Of a DNA stretch of 64,000 nucleotides, positions 4,821 through 63,487 are shown piece after piece. The number at the start of each line of letters is the position of its first letter. Position 1 is the stretch's first letter. The notes under the pieces were generated by a model. It did no database searches. It saw nothing but the letters and a program-made list of their open reading frames with translations, and was not told where the DNA came from. Location: contig NZ_JABEND010000001.1 of the NCBI RefSeq assembly GCF_013002705.1, positions 496,001 through 560,000 of the forward strand, given 5' to 3'. Origin of the DNA: Nakamurella aerolata. Its GTDB lineage: Bacteria > Actinomycetota > Actinomycetes > Mycobacteriales > Nakamurellaceae. Both the position numbers and the translations under genes were made by a program.

Positions 4821-6193
4821 CGGTTCTCGCCGTTCCCGGCCGCCGCCGCTGTTGGTGCCGACGTTTCCGGTGGGCGCTCTGGGCTCTCCGGACGCTCCGG
4901 CTTGGCCGGCTGGTCCGGCTCGGCCGGATCATCCAAGTGGAACCACTTCATGGCGGTTTCGGTGTCCTTGTCGCCGCGGCCGGACAGGTTGATCAGCACG
5001 ATCCCGTCCGGCCCGAGTTCTTTGGCCAGCGGCAGCGCCGCCGCCACCGCGTGCGCCGACTCGATGGCGGGAATGATCCCCTCAGTGCGGGCCAGCAGCG
5101 CCAGCGCGTCCATCGCCTCGGCGTCGGTGATCGGCACGTACTCGGCGCGGCCGATGTCGGCAAGGTGCGAATGCTCGGGCCCGACGCCCGGGTAGTCGAG
5201 GCCGGCGGAGATCGAGTGCGACTCCAGCACCTGACCGTCCTTGTCCTGCAACAGGAATGAGCGGGCGCCGTGCAGCACCCCGACGCTGCCGCCGGTGATG
5301 GTTGCGGCATGCCGTCCGGTGTCGACCCCGTCGCCGGCGGCTTCGGCGCCGACCAGGCGCACCGCCGGATCGTCGATGAAGGCGTGGAAGGCGCCGATGG
5401 CGTTGGAGCCGCCGCCGACGCAGGCGACAACGGCGTCGGGCAGCCGGCCGGTGAGCGCAGGCACCTGCACCCTGGCCTCGGCGCCGATGATCCGCTGCAG
5501 GTCGCGCACCAGCAGCGGGAACGGGTGCGGCCCTGCGGCGGTCCCGAAGATGTATGCGGTGTTCTCGACGTTGGCGACCCAGTCGCGGAAGGCCTCGTTG
5601 ATGGCGTCCTTGAGGGTGGCCGACCCGGTGTCGACCGGGACGACGGTGGCACCGAGCAGCCGCATCCTCGCCACGTTCAGCGCCTGCCGGTCGGTGTCCA
5701 CCCGGCCCATGTAGATGGTGCAGTCCAGCCCGAGCAGCGCCGCCGCGGTGGCGGTGGCGACCCCGTGCTGGCCGGCGCCGGTCTCGGCGATCACCCTCGG
5801 CTTGCCCATCTTCTTGGTGAGCAGCGCCTGGCCCAGCACGTTATTGATCTTGTGGCTGCCGGTGTGGTTCAGGTCTTCCCGCTTCAGCAGGATGCGGGCG
5901 CCGCCGACGTGCTCGGTCAGCCTGGCAGCGTCGCTGATCGGCGAGGGCCGTCCGGCGTAGGTCTCGGCGAGCCGGTCCAGCTCGCGCAGGAACTCGGGGT
6001 CGGTGCGGGCCTTGGCGTAGGCGTCGGAGATCTCGTCGAGCGCGGCCACCAGGGCCTCCGGCAACCAGCGGCCCCCCATCTGGCCGTAGTAGCCACGGCG
6101 ATCGGGATCGTGCGGAGTACCGGTGAGCGCATCGGACGGCCGGGGCAGCCCGTCCGGGCGCGGTCTGCCGCCGGCGGCGGCTGGAGCTGACAT
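4817..6193 (-). CDS. trpB: Tryptophan synthase beta chain
   Basis: PLP enzyme that condenses indole with serine to make tryptophan. The PLP lysine is Lys115 in [11 protein letters not shown]; the phosphate loop GGGSNAIG and the [12 protein letters not shown] segment are intact. The catalytic core ends at MKWFHLDD. A 45-residue Pro/Glu-rich tail follows, which is unusual and probably disordered. No strong ribosome site is seen before the ATG. It lies 98 bp downstream of trpC and overlaps trpA by 4 nt. Confidence 0.96.
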
Positions 6194-32874: not shown

Positions 32875-34137
32875 ATGCAGACCCCCAGCCCGCCCGAGCC
32901 GCCGGGAACGTCCGTCGCGTTCCGGTGGCGGCCGATCCTGCTGCCCGCATACGGGCCGACGGCACTGGCCTCGTTGGGTTACGGCGCGGTGACGCCGATG
33001 ATCGCGCTGGCGGCGATCGCGCTGGGCGCGAGTGCGGCGACCGCCGCTGTGGTCGTGACGCTGCTGGCCTGCGGTCAACTGGTCGGCGATCTCCCCGCCG
33101 GTGCGCTGGCGGCGAAGTTCGGCGAGCGGCGGGCACTGTTGGCGGCCGCCGCGGTTGATGTCGCCGCCATGACAACGGCGTACCTGGCGCAGTCGCTGTG
33201 GCTGCTGGCGCTGGCGGTGTTCGTTGACGGGATGTCGGCGTCGGTGTTCAACCTGGCCAGACATGCATGGATGACGGTCGCCATCCCGCTGCGGTACCGG
33301 GCCAGGGCGCTGTCCAGCCTTGGCGGCACCTTCCGGGTAGGGCTGTTCATCGGCCCGTTCGTCGCGGCCTGGCTGGTCAGCGCCTTCTCGCTGCAGGCGG
33401 TGTTCCTGTTCGCGGCGGGGACCGGGCTGGCGGCCGGGCTGCTCACGCTGACCATGCCAGATCTGACGGCGGACGAACGCACCGCGGGCAAGCGCGAGCA
33501 CCGGGCGCCGCGCGTCACGATCGCCGCGGTGGTCCGGCAGCACTGGTCGGTGCTGGCAACGGTGGGTGTCGGGGTGCTGTTGATCTCGGCCGCCCGGCAG
33601 TCGCGGCAGACCATCCTGCCGCTGTGGTCGGAGGCGCAGCAGCTGCATCCGAGCACCATCAGCGTCATTTTCGGTATCGCCGCAGGCATCGAGCTGCTGC
33701 TGGTCTACCCGGGCGGTGCGGTGATGGACCGGTTCGGCCGGGTGTTCGTCGCCGTCCCGGCCGTGCTGCTGATGGGGCTGGGTTTGCTGCTGCTGCCGTT
33801 GACGCATACCGCGATCGCCATCGCCGTGGTGGCCGGCGTGATGGCGGTCGGCAACGGGCTGTCGTCCGGCATCGTCCTCACCATGGGGAGCGACGCCGCG
33901 CCGACCGTCGGCCGCGCCCAGTTCCTCGGCGCCTGGCGCTTCCTCGCCGACACCGGCGGGCTGGCCGGTCCCGGCCTGATCGCGGCGGTGACGGCGCTGG
34001 CCGCGCTGGGCCCGGCGGCGGTGGCGATGGCCGCGGTCTGCGGGCTCGGCGCCGGCTGGCTGGCGGTGTTCGCGCCCGGCGGCCGGCGGTCCCGCCGTGC
34101 GGTGGCCACCGCCGGGAGCCGGCGCCGGCCCGGCTGA
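32875..34137 (+). CDS. MFS transporter
   Basis: A 420-residue integral membrane protein with about 12 hydrophobic helices in two halves. Major-facilitator loop motifs appear as GDLPAGALAAKFGERRAL after helix 2 and GGAVMDRFGRVFV in the second half. It resembles drug/metabolite efflux members; the substrate cannot be inferred. No ribosome site; a -10-like TAAATT lies just upstream. It is followed by an operator-like palindrome, so it is probably a separate unit from the acyl-CoA dehydrogenase genes. Confidence 0.85.
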   Translation: MQTPSPPEPPGTSVAFRWRPILLPAYGPTALASLGYGAVTPMIALAAIALGASAATAAVVVTLLACGQLVGDLPAGALAAKFGERRALLAAAAVDVAAMTTAYLAQSLWLLALAVFVDGMSASVFNLARHAWMTVAIPLRYRARALSSLGGTFRVGLFIGPFVAAWLVSAFSLQAVFLFAAGTGLAAGLLTLTMPDLTADERTAGKREHRAPRVTIAAVVRQHWSVLATVGVGVLLISAARQSRQTILPLWSEAQQLHPSTISVIFGIAAGIELLLVYPGGAVMDRFGRVFVAVPAVLLMGLGLLLLPLTHTAIAIAVVAGVMAVGNGLSSGIVLTMGSDAAPTVGRAQFLGAWRFLADTGGLAGPGLIAAVTALAALGPAAVAMAAVCGLGAGWLAVFAPGGRRSRRAVATAGSRRRPG

Positions 34138-34170
34138 CCGCCCATACACCGCAATTCGGTCGGGGATCCG

Positions 34171-34190
34171 ATACTAGGAATTCCTAGTAT
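34171..34190. promoter_or_regulatory. Perfect 20-bp palindrome overlapping a -10 element
   Basis: ATACTAGGAATTCCTAGTAT is a perfect palindrome. Its right end, TAGTAT (34185-34190), is an ideal TANNNT -10 for the acyl-CoA dehydrogenase gene, putting a start site near 34197 and a leader of about 98 nt. A dimeric repressor bound here would block the promoter. The MarR protein encoded two genes downstream is a candidate, but this is inference. Confidence 0.6.
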
Positions 34191-34294
34191 TCTGGGGGCT
34201 GGTGAGCCGGCCGGTGTTCGGGACGCTCGCTCCCCGGCCACCCCGCCGGTCCCACTCGAACCCGCACAACTCCCCCACACCCGGAGGACCGTTC

Positions 34295-35446
34295 ATGTCC
34301 CAGCTCTTCCAGCTCCCGCAGGACATCGCCGACATCGCGGGTGTGTCCAAGGAGTTCGCCGACGAGTTCCTCGCCCCGAACGCCGTCGCCTGGGACCGGG
34401 ACAAACACTTCCCCGTCGATGTGCTGCGCAAGGCGGCCGAGTTGGGCATGGGTGGCATGTACGTCTCCGAAGATGTTGGCGGCTCCGGCCTTTCCCGACT
34501 GGCGGCCGCTGCCATCATCGAGAGCCTTGCGACCGGCGACCCGTCGATCGCCAGCTACCTGTCCATCCACAACATGACGGCGTGGATGCTCGATGCGTTC
34601 GGCAGCGACGAGCTGCGGCAGCGCTACCTGCCGCAGATGTGCGCCATGGAGTACCTCGGTTCGTACTGCCTGACCGAGCCGGGGGCAGGCTCCGACGCTG
34701 CCGCACTGACCACCAAGGCCGTGCGCTCCGACGACGGCTCGCACTATCTGCTGAGCGGGGTCAAGCAGTTCATCTCCGGCGCCGGTGCCTCCAGGGTGTA
34801 CATCGTGATGGCCCGGACCGGCGGGCCCGGCCCGAAGAACATCTCGGCGTTCGTGGTCGATGGTGAATCCGAAGGATTGTCGTTCGGGCCCAACGAGATC
34901 AAGATGGGTTGGAATGCCCAGCCGACAAGGCAGGTGATCCTCGACCGGGTCAGGGTGCCTGCGTCGAACCTGCTCGGCAACGAAGGTGACGGCTTCACCA
35001 TCGCCATGAAGGGCCTCAACGGCGGCCGGCTCAACATTGCCGCCAGCTCGCTCGGCGGAGCACAAGCCGCCCTGGACAAGGCGATCGGCTATCTGGGCGA
35101 GCGGCAGGCGTTCGGCGCGCCGCTGAAGTCGTTACAGGCATTGCAGTTCGACATCGCAGAAATGGCCACCTCGCTGGAGGCGGCGCGGCTGTTGTTGTGG
35201 CGCGCCGCCGATGCCCTCGACAACGGCGATCCGCGGGCGGTGCCGCTGTGCGCGATGGCGAAGAAGCTGTGTACCGACACCGGTTTCGAGGTGGCCAACC
35301 GGGCGCTGCAGTTGCACGGTGGCTACGGCTACCTCGCCGAGTACGGCATCGAGAAGATCGTCCGCGATCTGCGGGTGCACCAGATTCTGGAGGGCACCAA
35401 CGAGATCATGAACCTGATCATCTCCCGGTCGGTACTGCCGGGCTGA
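34295..35446 (+). CDS. Acyl-CoA dehydrogenase
   Basis: FAD enzyme making enoyl-CoA from acyl-CoA. 383 residues with YCLTEPGAGSDA, the flavin region FISGAGASRVYIVMARTG, RQAFGAPLKSLQALQF, LHGGYGYLAEYGIEKIVRDLR and catalytic base Glu366 in LEGTNEI. The short length and sequence style resemble isobutyryl-/short-chain dehydrogenases of valine or branched-chain degradation, but specificity is not certain. ATG at 34295 has GGAGG 7 nt upstream; an upstream in-frame GTG (34202) would add an unconserved Pro/Arg-rich leader. First gene of a unit with the hydratase and MarR genes. Confidence 0.9.
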   Translation: MSQLFQLPQDIADIAGVSKEFADEFLAPNAVAWDRDKHFPVDVLRKAAELGMGGMYVSEDVGGSGLSRLAAAAIIESLATGDPSIASYLSIHNMTAWMLDAFGSDELRQRYLPQMCAMEYLGSYCLTEPGAGSDAAALTTKAVRSDDGSHYLLSGVKQFISGAGASRVYIVMARTGGPGPKNISAFVVDGESEGLSFGPNEIKMGWNAQPTRQVILDRVRVPASNLLGNEGDGFTIAMKGLNGGRLNIAASSLGGAQAALDKAIGYLGERQAFGAPLKSLQALQFDIAEMATSLEAARLLLWRAADALDNGDPRAVPLCAMAKKLCTDTGFEVANRALQLHGGYGYLAEYGIEKIVRDLRVHQILEGTNEIMNLIISRSVLPG

Positions 35447-35524: not shown

Positions 35525-36316
35525 ATGACCGAGTCCAGCCAGTACCAGACCATCACCGTCGACCGGGCCACCGCCCCGCGGGTCGCCCTGATCACCCTGA
35601 ACCGACCGGAGGCCCTGAACGCCCTCAACGCCGAGCTGATCAGCGAGTTGGTCGACGCCGCAACCACTCTCGACCTTGACCCCGATGTCGGCGCTATCGT
35701 GCTCACCGGCTCGGACAAGGCGTTCGCCGCCGGCGCCGACATCAAGCAGATGCAGGACATGGGCTATCCGCAGACCTACACGGACAACCTGTTCGCCGAG
35801 GCCGACCGGCTCGCCAATCTGCGTACACCGTTGATCGCCGCGGTGGCCGGCTACGCCCTCGGCGGCGGCTGCGAACTGGCGATGCTCTGCGACATCCTGA
35901 TCGCCGCCGACACGGCGGTGTTCGGTCAGCCGGAGATCAAGCTCGGCGTGATTCCCGGCATCGGCGGTTCCCAACGGCTGGCCCGCGCGGTGGGCAAAGC
36001 CGTTGCCATGGACCTGATTCTGACCGGTCGCACCATGAAGGCGGACGAGGCCAAACAGACCGGCCTCGCTTCCAGGGTGGTGCCGGCCGACCAGCTGCTG
36101 CCCACCGCCCTCGAGGTGGCGCAGACCATCGGCGGGTACTCCAAGCCGGCCACCTGGATGGCCAAGGAGGCCGTCAACCGCGCCTTCGAAACCAGCCTCA
36201 CCGAGGGCATCCGCTTCGAGCGCAGGGTGTTCCAGGCCGGCTTCGCCACCGCCGACCAGTCCGAAGGCATGGCGGCATTCGCCGAGAAGCGGCCGCCGAA
36301 CTTCACCCACAGCTGA
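35525..36316 (+). CDS. Enoyl-CoA hydratase
   Basis: Crotonase-fold enzyme hydrating trans-2-enoyl-CoA. 263 residues with the oxyanion segments [10 protein letters not shown] and [12 protein letters not shown] and both catalytic glutamates, Glu117 (GCELAMLCD) and Glu137 ([12 protein letters not shown]), so it is a true hydratase rather than a divergent crotonase. It lies 78 bp after the acyl-CoA dehydrogenase and would act on its product. GATACT lies 6 nt before the ATG, so it may also have its own leaderless promoter. Confidence 0.92.
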
Positions 36317-36440
36317 GCATCGCCGCCGGCCCGGCACCGGTTCCAGCGGCACGTTGATCGCGGTGGCGCGCTCGTCCCAGCAGCCGGGACACCCGGCCCG
36401 CGCACGCGGCTCGGCGGCGGCCGGTTGCTAACGTCGCGGT

Positions 36441-36971
36441 ATGACTCATGGTGTGCGCGGGCAGCGTCCGCAACTCGGTTCGGCGCTGCCGTTCGACCCC
36501 ATCGAGAAGGCGGCGCAGACCTGGTCGGAACGCATCGGCCCGAACACCGCCATGGCCGCCGTCACCAACGTGATGCGGGTGCAGCAAATTCTGCAGGCCA
36601 CCGTCGACGAGGCGCTCAAGCCGCACGGACTTACCTTCGCCCGCTATGAAGCGCTGGTGCTGTTGTCGTTCAGCAAACGCGGCAGTCTGCCGATGCGGCT
36701 GATGGGCGAGCGGTTGCAGCTGCACCCGACCTCGATCACCAACATCGTCGACCGGCTGGAGGCGGACGGCCTGGCCAAGCGGCTGCCGCACCCCTCGGAC
36801 CGGCGCACCACCTTGGTTGAGCTCACCGATGCCGGTGCGGAGCGGCTACAGGCGGCCACCGCGGCCGTCACCGACGCCGAGTTCGGTTGGGTGGGTCTGG
36901 ACGACTCCGAGCTGTCCGAGCTGAGCCGGCTGCTCACCAAGGTCCGCAAGGCGGTCGGCGACTTCAGCTGA
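36441..36971 (+). CDS. MarR family transcriptional regulator
   Basis: A 176-residue winged-helix protein: dimerisation helices at both ends, recognition region LHPTSITNIVDRLEADGLAKR and wing DRRTTLVELTDAG. MarR proteins usually bind short palindromes and release them with small ligands such as aromatic acids or acyl-CoAs. It sits after the acyl-CoA dehydrogenase and hydratase genes and may control them through the 20-bp palindrome. ATG lies exactly 6 nt after TAACGT, a good TANNNT, with no ribosome site: probably leaderless. Confidence 0.88.
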   Translation: MTHGVRGQRPQLGSALPFDPIEKAAQTWSERIGPNTAMAAVTNVMRVQQILQATVDEALKPHGLTFARYEALVLLSFSKRGSLPMRLMGERLQLHPTSITNIVDRLEADGLAKRLPHPSDRRTTLVELTDAGAERLQAATAAVTDAEFGWVGLDDSELSELSRLLTKVRKAVGDFS

Positions 36972-37084: not shown

Positions 37085-37582
37085 CTATGCCCGCGGGGGC
37101 CAATGCTCCAGCGGCAGCGGCGCCCTGGCGCTGACCGTCCGGATCGCGAACATGCTGCGCGCGTCGGTGACCGGCCCGATCAGCAGCAGCTCGTCGAGCA
37201 ACACCGCTTCGTAGGCCGTCAGGTCCGGGACAACGACCTCGACAAGGAAATCGGCCTCACCCGACACCACATAGCAGGCCACAACGGCCGGAATAGCGGT
37301 CAGCGCCTGCTCGATCATCCGCGAGGTGTCGCGGGAGTGCTGCGTCACCCGCAGCGAGACGAACACCGTCAACCCCAGCCCGAGCGCGAGCCGGTCCAGC
37401 TCGGCCCGGTAGCCACCGATCAGGCCGGCGGCTTCCAGCGCCTTGGTGCGGCGCAAGCACGCGGACGGCGACAGCCCGACCCGTTCGGCGAGCTCGACGT
37501 TCGGGATCCTGCCTTCGCTCTGCAGCGTCGCCAGGATGGCACGGTCGGTCTTGTCGAAGAGCTGCTGCGGCATGATCCGCAT
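37085..37582 (-). CDS. Lrp/AsnC family transcriptional regulator
   Basis: A 165-residue protein: N-terminal helix-turn-helix (VELAERVGLSPSACLRRTKALEAAG, a typical AsnC-class signature) and a C-terminal RAM ligand-binding domain (VVACYVVSGEADFLVEVVV). Such proteins sense amino acids and often control a divergent transporter, here the permease at 37680. ATG at 37582 is favoured by AAGG 7 nt upstream. A 13-bp palindrome lies 18 bp upstream of its start. Confidence 0.9.
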   Translation of the reverse strand: MRIMPQQLFDKTDRAILATLQSEGRIPNVELAERVGLSPSACLRRTKALEAAGLIGGYRAELDRLALGLGLTVFVSLRVTQHSRDTSRMIEQALTAIPAVVACYVVSGEADFLVEVVVPDLTAYEAVLLDELLLIGPVTDARSMFAIRTVSARAPLPLEHWPPRA

Positions 37583-37600
37583 CGTACGGCCTTCATGCCG

Positions 37601-37613
37601 CGCAATAGTTGCG
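37601..37613. promoter_or_regulatory. Likely Lrp/AsnC operator
   Basis: CGCAA-TAG-TTGCG is a perfect 13-bp palindrome in the 97-bp divergent region between lrp and the permease gene. Its length, AT-rich centre and position fit Lrp/AsnC sites, consistent with autoregulation and control of the permease. Binding is inferred. Confidence 0.45.
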
Positions 37614-37679
37614 TCAGACCGGCGTTGAGTCACCTACTTTGCCATCGCGTGTCGCCGGTACTGCCGCAGAGTCGTCGGT

Positions 37680-38981
37680 ATGGAAACCACGCCGGCTGCC
37701 GTCGGTACCCGAGCCGCACCCACGCCGTCGCGGCCGCCGCTCAATACCGCGGCGGCGGTGGCGCTGTATGTGGGCGCGCTGCTCGGACCCAGCGTGCTGC
37801 TGGTACCGGGCCTTGCGGCCGAGATCGCCGGTCCCGCTTCGATTGTCGTCTGGTTGGGCATGTTGCTGGTGTCGGGATTGCTGGCGATCGTCTTCACCGC
37901 GCTCGGCATTCGTTTCCCCGACGGCGGCATGGTGGCCTACGTGCGGGCCGGGCTGCACCGCCGGCTCGGCCCGGCCGCCGGGTGGATGTTCGTCGCCGGG
38001 GTGGTGGTCGGTGCTCCGGTGGTCAGCCTGATCGGTGCCGGCTACCTGACCGGGCTGCTGGGCCTGCGTCCCGGCGCAACACCGTTGGTCGCGGCCGTCC
38101 TGCTTGCCCTGGTCGTCGCGGTGAATCTGTTCGGCCGACGCGCCGGAACCAGGGTGCAGCAGCTGCTGGTGGCGGTGCTGCTGGTACTGGTGCTGGTGGC
38201 GGTGGCCGCGGCGCTGCCCCGCATGCGAGCCGACGCGTGGCAGCCGCTGGCCCCGCACGGTTGGTCGGCGCTGGGCCCGGCGGCGCTGGCGGTGATGCTG
38301 TCGTTCGTCGGCTGGGAGGCGATCACCCCGCTGGTCTCGAGGCTGCCCGATCCCGGCCGGCAACTGCCGAAGATCACCGGCACCGCGTTCGGCGTCACCG
38401 CGGTGGTGTACCTGGCACTGGCGACCGTCACCATCGGGGTGCTCGGCGGCCGGGCCGGTGTGGCGCCGGTCGCCGCGTTGCTCGATGCCGGGCTGGGGCG
38501 CGCCGGTGCGGTGGTCGGTTCCGTCGTCGCCATCGCGGTGACGCTGGCCGGCACCAACGCCTACCTGTCCGGTGCTACCGAGCTCACCCGAGAGTTGTTG
38601 CGTCCCAGCGATTCCACTCAGCGTGGCCGCCGTCCCGCCGCCGCCCGGGCTCCCGAACGAGCGCTGCCACCGGCCATCGCTGGGCTGGGGACGGCGGTGT
38701 TCGTCGCCACCGGCGCCGGTTGGTTGTCGGTGGCCCAGTTGGTGGCCATCCCGTCGACCCTTTTCGTGTCGGTGTACCTGCTGTGCACGGTCGCGGCGAC
38801 GCGGCTGCTCAACGGCAGGATGCGGCTGGTTGCCGGCGCGGCCGCCGGCGCCGTGACGGTGCCGCTGTTGTTCGCCGGGTGGAACCTGGTGGTGCCGACG
38901 GCGATCGGGGTGGGCAGCCTGGTGATCGGGGCTCGCCGCCGCCCGCCGGTCAGCGGATCTGGGTCTCCTGGACAGCGATGA
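37680..38981 (+). CDS. APC-family amino acid permease
   Basis: A 433-residue membrane protein with 11-12 hydrophobic helices. The first helix contains ALYVGALLGPSVLLVPG, corresponding to the unwound Gly-rich helix of APC transporters. It is divergent from an Lrp/AsnC regulator, a common arrangement for amino acid uptake or export genes; direction and substrate are unknown. The last 32 bp overlap the 3' end of the next gene on the opposite strand. Confidence 0.82.
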   Translation: METTPAAVGTRAAPTPSRPPLNTAAAVALYVGALLGPSVLLVPGLAAEIAGPASIVVWLGMLLVSGLLAIVFTALGIRFPDGGMVAYVRAGLHRRLGPAAGWMFVAGVVVGAPVVSLIGAGYLTGLLGLRPGATPLVAAVLLALVVAVNLFGRRAGTRVQQLLVAVLLVLVLVAVAAALPRMRADAWQPLAPHGWSALGPAALAVMLSFVGWEAITPLVSRLPDPGRQLPKITGTAFGVTAVVYLALATVTIGVLGGRAGVAPVAALLDAGLGRAGAVVGSVVAIAVTLAGTNAYLSGATELTRELLRPSDSTQRGRRPAAARAPERALPPAIAGLGTAVFVATGAGWLSVAQLVAIPSTLFVSVYLLCTVAATRLLNGRMRLVAGAAAGAVTVPLLFAGWNLVVPTAIGVGSLVIGARRRPPVSGSGSPGQR

Positions 38982-62700: not shown

Positions 62701-63487
62701 CCACCCGCTCTGACGGGCTACCCCAGGTGAACCAGCCGACCGGCTGTTGCGCGGTGCCGATCGGCACCGCACCCTCGAAATCGGACAGCAATGCGCTGCG
62801 CCGGTACAGCGCGAACTCGTCGAAGCTCCAGGTGCCGGCGCCAAGGTCGGTGAGGGTCACCGCGAATCCGTGCGCCTGCGCCGGGTCGAAGCGCAGACTC
62901 GACTCGGGATTGCCCTTGAGTCGCAGCACCCCGAAGTCGATCCTGACCGTCCGCCAACCGGTTTGGTCGTCCACCACCGAGGTCTCGAACAGATTGGCGC
63001 TACCGGCGTTCGCACCGCCGCTCTTGACCTCGTATCGCAGGTTCTTGCCGCTGCCGGTCCCGAGAAAGGCGAACGAGAAGCCGTCGAAGGCCGACCAGTC
63101 CGCTGCTGGATCGATGTCGCGCGAGAACCCGGACCAGCCGCCGGCCGGTACCGCGTCGACCTTGGCGGTCAGAGCGCGATTGCCCGGCTCGGTGCCGGGC
63201 ACCTGAGCCGCCGCGACGGTGAGTGCCGGGGTGGCCGCAGCGTCGTTGCCCCAGGCGAAGATTCCGCCGGTGCTGCCGTCGTTGAAGTCGACCACCGGTT
63301 GGGTGTCGCCGATGGTCGCTGGCGGTGGCTCGGCGGCACTCGCGGCGGCGGCCGGCGACAGCGCGACGGCGGTGACGGTCAGCAGCGCCAGCACTCGGCG
63401 CAGCCGAAGCCGAGACCGTGCCGGCCGGTGCCGGCCGCGCCGGGCCGTGGTGCCGAGCGGAGTGGACTGCGCAAGGGCGGACAGCAT
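59702..63487 (-). CDS. Secreted multidomain GH3 glycoside hydrolase
   Basis: A 1261-residue exported enzyme, probably a beta-glucosidase or exo-glucanase. Signal: [27 protein letters not shown]. Two related beta-sandwich modules (about 65-205 and 210-400), each with GFS...DWS and a C-terminal W-x-(F/I)-D-(E/D)-(F/V)-A-L-Y strand, resemble carbohydrate-binding modules; a Calx-beta-like domain follows (about 405-520). The GH3 barrel has nucleophile Asp835 in LVSDWEGI; the second GH3 domain includes VVVGEKPYAEGIGD with the likely acid/base region. The last roughly 115 residues are an extra helical domain. ATG at 63487 has GGAGG 5 nt upstream. Confidence 0.88.
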   Translation of the reverse strand: MLSALAQSTPLGTTARRGRHRPARSRLRLRRVLALLTVTAVALSPAAAASAAEPPPATIGDTQPVVDFNDGSTGGIFAWGNDAAATPALTVAAAQVPGTEPGNRALTAKVDAVPAGGWSGFSRDIDPAADWSAFDGFSFAFLGTGSGKNLRYEVKSGGANAGSANLFETSVVDDQTGWRTVRIDFGVLRLKGNPESSLRFDPAQAHGFAVTLTDLGAGTWSFDEFALYRRSALLSDFEGAVPIGTAQQPVGWFTWGSPSERVVSLGVNPLERNGNAQNKVLSGNYQIPAGGYGGFSYNLSQAQDWSSYGGIRFWWYASQPTKPASPTAGADIPIEIKDGGPDGEHSELWTTTFKDNWSAAGTRWKLVEIPFSQFTLRGDFQPGTGDTLDGVFSRTQAWGFAITLPPGTATAVPWAIDDVALYGTAVPRPAATVTVDPPVTLVDAGETASIAIGVTSADGAPLPAPVTVRYAPGDGTAPDSAYRDFGGTLTFPAGTESGATQRITVHTTPAAGADVARTIAVALTVTGGTAPADNPLVVINAHGLRYQDETLPIAQRVDDLMSRMSQADKIGQMTQAERLGLSSPAQITDLRLGSLLSGGGSVPADNTAKGWADMIDGFQARALATPLQIPMIYGVDAVHGHNNVVGATITPHNIGLGATRDPEIVKQTAELTATEVRATGVPWTFAPCVCVTRDERWGRSYESFSEDPALVTQFARPAVTGLQGDDAAALTGPNAVLATAKHWAGDGGTSYDESQAGNGYPIDQGITKVATMAEFRRLFVTPYQPAIAAGVGSVMPSYSAVQVGDGPVVRMHENTALNTGLLKNTMKFAGFLVSDWEGINKLPGSDYADKVARSVNSGLDMAMAPYDFATFQTSLTDKVTAGVVKQSRVDDAVRRILTQKFRLGLFERPFADRSQADTVGSVEHRTIARTAAAESQVLLKNVANTLPLKKNGAIYLAGSNADDLGNQMGGWSISWQGSSGATTSGTTIAQGIAEVAPNAELTVSADASAPVPTGAAGVVVVGEKPYAEGIGDVGNNGNSLSLSAADRASIDKVCAAAASCTVLVVSGRPQLVTDKLDRIDALVASWLPGSEGAGVADVLFGDRPFGGRLPVSWPASAAQVPINVGDADYRPLYPYGWGMTTGSLRDQLVQLAGDSSGALRGALQAAAAPGLWNGDEPRQLSRVLSALRRAATLADSTGNSTAGDGIADVLRNLTQRKVQASTGTPSEPVSTALAGADHELAGGRYLVAIAELTRAVQLAYS

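Follow-up and report, generated by a model that had tools for sequence, protein, structure and literature searches.

Judged from its conservation, the AT-rich palindrome at positions 34171-34190 of the window (the whole 64,000-nucleotide stretch of Nakamurella aerolata DNA that was analysed) is a conserved actinobacterial operator with the consensus TASTNGGANNTCCNASTA, and not a product of chance. It is very likely that a MarR-family regulator of the Sco5413 type represses valine and isobutyryl-CoA catabolism from this palindrome, and a short-chain acyl-CoA probably releases it. Computation established the site, how far it is conserved, which genes it is likely to control and that motif and MarR gene co-occur; the binding, the repression and the ligand are what we infer. 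The features of the window are as follows.

34171..34190, strand ".": operator, the perfect 20-bp palindrome ATACTAGGAATTCCTAGTAT, predicted from its conservation as the site of the MarR/Sco5413-type repressor
34185..34193, + strand: candidate -10 elements overlapping the right half of the operator, TAGTAT (34185-34190) or TATTCT (34188-34193), by analogy with icmA loci
34295..35446, + strand: acyl-CoA dehydrogenase, isobutyryl-CoA dehydrogenase-like (ACAD8-like), predicted target; best match PDB 1rx0
35525..36316, + strand: enoyl-CoA hydratase (NCBIfam PRK05862, 403.3 bits against a cut-off of 396)
36425..36434, + strand: YTGCTANNGT (in the window TTGCTAACGT), an element conserved in 17/17 genus members and predicted to be the -10 region of a separate MarR promoter
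36441..36971, + strand: MarR-family regulator, orthologue of Sco5413 (PDB 4b8x), predicted operator binder from sequence, structure and co-occurrence

The sequence-only reading had claimed a perfect palindrome at this place and had judged an AT-rich one improbable by chance in GC-rich DNA, and both statements hold. The palindrome is present letter for letter, with A or T at 14 of its 20 positions in a window of 70.4% G+C. Sixty dinucleotide shuffles gave a mean of 0.4 perfect 20-bp palindromes per window (maximum 2), none of them with 12 or more A/T. The window itself has two, the second being the GC-rich GCGGTGCCGATCGGCACCGC at 62751-62770, which chance can account for here. When up to three mismatches are allowed, the 20-mer is a single copy both in the window (0.00 expected in shuffles) and in its own genome of 4.35 Mb. 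The further claim that the right end of the palindrome forms a TANNNT -10 stands in part: TAGTAT fits the pattern, but a consensus scan of 34050-34320 found no sigma-70-type promoter with a -35 element, so the -10 assignment in the window stays a guess.

The genes behind the operator point to valine breakdown. Compared with 32 solved chains, the dehydrogenase reached 451.5 bits with human ACAD8 (1rx0), its closest solved relative, and 277 with the runner-up; among NCBIfam equivalogs, none matched it above its own cut-off. ACAD8, entered in 1rx0 as 'Acyl-CoA dehydrogenase family member 8', is taken here to be isobutyryl-CoA dehydrogenase, which the window enzyme most resembles in sequence. The enoyl-CoA hydratase is likely to perform the next step of the valine pathway and to be part of the target unit; in one locus found elsewhere (L124), a HIBYL-CoA hydrolase gene stands behind the same operator and is followed by an enzyme 66% identical to the window hydratase. 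An acyl-CoA dehydrogenase operon that includes MarR had been proposed, and dehydrogenase, hydratase and MarR do follow the operator, but the place of MarR in this unit is doubtful, since its gene probably has its own conserved promoter. The YTGCTANNGT element lies just 5' of the MarR start in all 17 genus members, and its 8 plus-strand copies in the 17 loci (59,388 bases) equal the number of plus-strand MarR loci. The stretch between dehydrogenase and MarR showed neither a terminator-like site nor a consensus promoter, and transcription from the operator promoter may read through into MarR. Farther downstream, at 37085-38981, an Lrp/AsnC-type regulator is divergent from a permease related to a methionine/branched-chain amino-acid transporter; this pair is likely a second amino-acid switch adjoining the valine switch.

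The palindrome is conserved well beyond this genome. Among the own genome and 100 relatives, 12 of 101 carried a match with at most three mismatches. The 11 loci outside the own genome had downstream an IcmA-like mutase (5, at 79-87% identity to a Streptomyces one), MmsA (3), an orthologous dehydrogenase (1), IcmF (1) or no recognised target (1, L007), and in four of them a MarR 48-56% identical to that of the window is encoded upstream of the site, about 1 kb away or less. In public genomes, at least 119 stretches carry the exact pattern WTACTAGGANNTCCTAGTAW. All 80 matches with titles, among the matches listed, are actinomycetes, mostly Streptomyces, with Mycobacterium, Mycolicibacterium, Arthrobacter, Nocardioides, Pedococcus, Flexivirga, Planomonospora and others also represented. 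Among the 119 matches listed, 117 lie -60 to 200 bp from the start of a gene of one of six families: IcmA (85), IcmF (15), MmsA (10), EtfB (4), 3-hydroxybutyryl-CoA dehydrogenase (HBD, 2) and HIBYL-CoA hydrolase (HIBCH, 1), which by their sequences appear to be genes around isobutyryl-CoA or valine catabolism. This proportion is partly circular because the families were drawn from the same loci, but gene density does not explain it, as decoy positions placed every 400 bp in these loci were near target families in only 18 of 1694 cases (family matches had to begin in the first 40 residues). In the two unplaced loci, L105 and L110, the site is less than 80 bp from the locus end, so the target gene presumably lies off the locus; MarR is 208 and 638 bp away. 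The initial proposal of a repressor operator is supported by this conservation upstream of several target families, and the regulon is much wider than the window operon.

The names of the families differ in their basis. Representatives of IlvE, IcmF, MmsA, HBD and HIBYL-CoA hydrolase passed the NCBIfam cut-offs. For the 566-residue mutase only the general acyl-CoA mutase model passed, so the name IcmA is presumed from length and resemblance. The EtfB-like representative had no NCBIfam match at the threshold used, and its name is likewise presumed from the look of its sequence. The MmsA loci listed are mycobacterial by title in 9 of 10 cases; in eight of the ten, an acyl-CoA dehydrogenase 58-65% identical to that of the window lies 3' of MmsA, and in the remaining two (L052 and L055) the locus end truncates MmsA itself. 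An EtfB-like gene follows the operator in L054, L098, L118 and L157, the first three from Arthrobacter, and in L054 and L098 a dehydrogenase 65% identical to the window's is present in the same locus; an electron-transfer flavoprotein may thus be tied to the operator regulon in the EtfB loci. A tandem operator pair is found before IcmF in L044 (about 6060-6110), and half-sites overlap before a dehydrogenase in L017. In L056 and L139, icmA and a small membrane-protein-like gene diverge from either side of the operator, which lies 65 bp from the start of the small gene; this gene may be co-regulated with icmA.

Within the genus, sites were sought with a matrix whose eight training sites all came from other families of the order, and the p values, taken from 300 shuffles (floor 0.003), overstate the evidence because the genomes are related. 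A consensus search with at most two mismatches was unspecific, as the reversed control gave more matches in each of the 17 genomes, so targets were assigned instead from scans anchored on the upstream regions of genes. Conservation before orthologous dehydrogenases, on which the sequence-only reading had beforehand staked its claim, was found in full: window-type dehydrogenases (E 1e-120 or better) occur in 10 of 17 genomes as 11 genes, every one of them preceded by a site, 34-134 bp from the aligned start (p 0.003 to 0.013). IcmA is encoded in six of the 17 genomes, divergent from MarR and 75-77% identical to the Streptomyces protein, and all six IcmA-MarR intergenic regions carry a site (five with p at or below 0.007, floor 0.003, and the sixth with 0.020). 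Dehydrogenase and IcmA never occur together among the 17 genomes, and G004 has neither; this non-overlap would have a probability of 0.0006 if the genomes were independent, which those of a genus are not. The branched-chain aminotransferase IlvE is present in 17/17 genomes, and in each a site lies 17-66 bp ahead of its aligned start (p 0.003-0.007). Eleven of these 17 are fresh tests, because the choice of IlvE was prompted by sites next to it in five loci, including that of the window genome, and a sixth such locus was already available. The window genome's own site (G000:C2) is ATAGTTGGACGTCCAAGCAA, 17 bp before IlvE; near a weak site of this genome, L184, no recognised target was found. MarR itself is present in 17/17 genomes, with the 16 others 72-86% identical to that of the window. 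Autoregulation of MarR in the window genome was rejected, with no site in the 180 bp upstream (p 0.365); in ten other genus members the regions upstream of MarR scored around zero or lower (p 0.037 to 0.907), and the sites before MarR in the six members where it is divergent from IcmA may serve IcmA.

The window regulator belongs to the MarR family, whose members typically bind as dimers to inverted-repeat operators of about 16-20 bp and leave DNA when a small ligand binds. It matches Pfam PF01047 with 39.7 bits (cut-off 24.6), and its AlphaFold model (mean pLDDT 85.4) matched MarR structures at Z 15-18. Its closest solved relative is Sco5413 of Streptomyces coelicolor (4b8x), with a phmmer E of 1.7e-41 and 144.9 bits, about 100 above the next solved protein at 43 bits; the structures agree at 52% identity, Z 17.9 (tied with MftR, 8ylg) and rmsd 1.6 over 139 residues. 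The icmA neighbourhood is shared as well: homologues adjoin icmA in Streptomyces loci, the S. coelicolor sco5413 gene presumably also lies beside icmA, and in the genus MarR is divergent from IcmA in 6/17 genomes. This score gap and this neighbourhood mark the two proteins as orthologues.

The same-locus MarR had been suggested as the repressor, and two observations favour it as the predicted binder: it lies near the motif in several gene contexts, and the two co-occur. In a phylum sample of 396 genomes, 22 carried the strict motif (one mismatch allowed) and 64 carried MarR (E 1e-25 or better, with up to eight candidates scored per genome), and MarR was present in 20 of the 22 motif genomes (Fisher p 1.6e-15, a value that overstates the evidence because genomes are related); a reversed-pattern control hit 11 genomes, three of them with MarR (p 0.40). 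All 20 strict matches in MarR-positive genomes precede a target gene, and the two in MarR-negative genomes precede none (L179 and L180 are the matches without a target among the 22). The strict motif is absent from 44 of the 64 MarR-positive genomes; within the genus, degenerate sites explain such absence. Furthermore, 116 sequences from the fetched loci, some of them duplicates, share the recognition-helix stretch HPTSxTN with a conservation of at least 90%. It could be argued that the operator is genuine but bound by another conserved transcription factor, with MarR linked by ancestry or synteny only. The genomes of the phylum sample share ancestry, and the tally by genus (seven of nine motif genera MarR-positive, p 3e-5), while significant, comprises few genera. 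This explanation is nevertheless unlikely, since MarR lies near the motif in four contexts, namely before IcmA, before IcmF, in three mmsA loci of mycobacteria (3.6 kb from the motif) and behind the window dehydrogenase genes, and since neither MarR-negative genome with a strict match has an adjoining target gene. Moreover, all 119 motif loci listed come from genomes with MarR: 81 have it inside the locus (tblastn E 1e-10 or better; some are cut by the locus end) and the other 38 elsewhere in the genome (38/38, best E 8e-36 or better).

The position of the operator within icmA promoters bears on the direction of control. In the 85 icmA loci among the matches listed, the start codon mostly follows 9-11 bp after the operator, TCGACA lies directly 5' of it in 68 and a TANNNT overlaps its end in 83; the operator occupies the 18-bp spacer between these two elements. 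At the window operator the -10-like part alone is visible. This arrangement in icmA promoters is compatible with a repressor that blocks synthesis of a leaderless transcript, as far as promoter sequence can tell. Activation instead of repression by a bound MarR is quite improbable; some MarR proteins are generally known to activate, but an operator that takes up the whole spacer from the -35-like to the -10-like element, and extends into the latter, is in a blocking position. Induction by valine also speaks against activation, as L-valine raised isobutyryl-CoA mutase RNA in Streptomyces albus by log2 5.2, in the available text of PMC8176718. It is hardly credible, finally, that the palindrome arose by chance or is a non-regulatory feature such as a terminator or recombination site: it is a perfect inverted repeat 3' of the upstream MFS gene end, but the terminator scan found no terminator-like site at it, and its retention before different genes and in other families, together with the shuffles and the decoy-controlled conservation at target genes, rules these readings out.

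For the preferred reading, repression by MarR, the following mechanism is proposed. A MarR dimer would occupy the palindrome across the core promoter and block transcription of the isobutyryl-CoA dehydrogenase and enoyl-CoA hydratase genes and, in the window genome, also of ilvE. During valine breakdown one of the short-chain acyl-CoAs, with isobutyryl-CoA and butyryl-CoA the likeliest, would accumulate and bind MarR, which would then leave the operator and allow the pathway enzymes to be produced. Elsewhere among actinobacteria the same MarR-operator pair would act on IcmA, IcmF, MmsA, EtfB and HIBYL-CoA hydrolase at the same metabolic node. The ligand is probably isobutyryl-CoA or butyryl-CoA, as the targets meet at isobutyryl-CoA and S. 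albus responds to valine, with the pools of both compounds also rising on L-valine in the accessible part of PMC8176718. CouR (5cyv, 6c28), a MarR-family repressor bound by p-coumaroyl-CoA, is a precedent for an acyl-CoA ligand in the family; it has the MarR fold in common with the window protein (Z 15.3-15.4) but only 21-27% identity, and its ligand is aromatic, whereas that of the window MarR would be a short-chain acyl-CoA. Branched-chain amino-acid and short-chain acyl-CoA metabolism is likewise controlled in actinomycetes by BkaR, PccD, AccR and BkdR, as far as the passages available from PMC3920632, PMC8176718 and PMC11596240 go; BkaR, PccD and AccR are described there as TetR-type, in contrast to the MarR-type window regulator.

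The structure paper on Sco5413 calls it widespread and 'of unknown function', going by its title in the reference lists of PMC3737563 and PMC9739823, whereas the window MarR has an operator and a regulon, both predicted. A literature search, in which a motif printed inside a paper could be missed, found no account of the operator or of a role of Sco5413. SCO5413 is tabulated among NdgR ChIP-seq binding regions in the accessible portion of PMC4340878, possibly a further link to branched-chain amino acid control, and it appears in the regulator table of a carbon catabolite study (PMC4848846, in the part available).

The chances are about even that the Sco5413-type MarR is the actinobacterial sensor of isobutyryl-/butyryl-CoA, with one regulator-operator pair governing valine carbon from Streptomyces to Mycobacterium, Arthrobacter, Nocardioides and the window genus, and with the exit enzyme exchanged within the genus, where the regulator and the ilvE site are kept and dehydrogenase and mutase are swapped. 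If this is true, an operator, a regulon and a ligand open to testing could be assigned to a widespread regulator that has a high-resolution structure but for which no role was found. According to the accessible sections of PMC8176718, polyketide precursors in Streptomyces draw on isobutyryl-CoA and butyryl-CoA, and the switch would therefore offer a practical way to influence the supply of precursors for antibiotics. Mycobacterial mmsA/acyl-CoA dehydrogenase genes also have this operator code in front of them. Moreover, the exchange of dehydrogenase and mutase under one operator would be a clean case of a regulon outlasting its enzyme.
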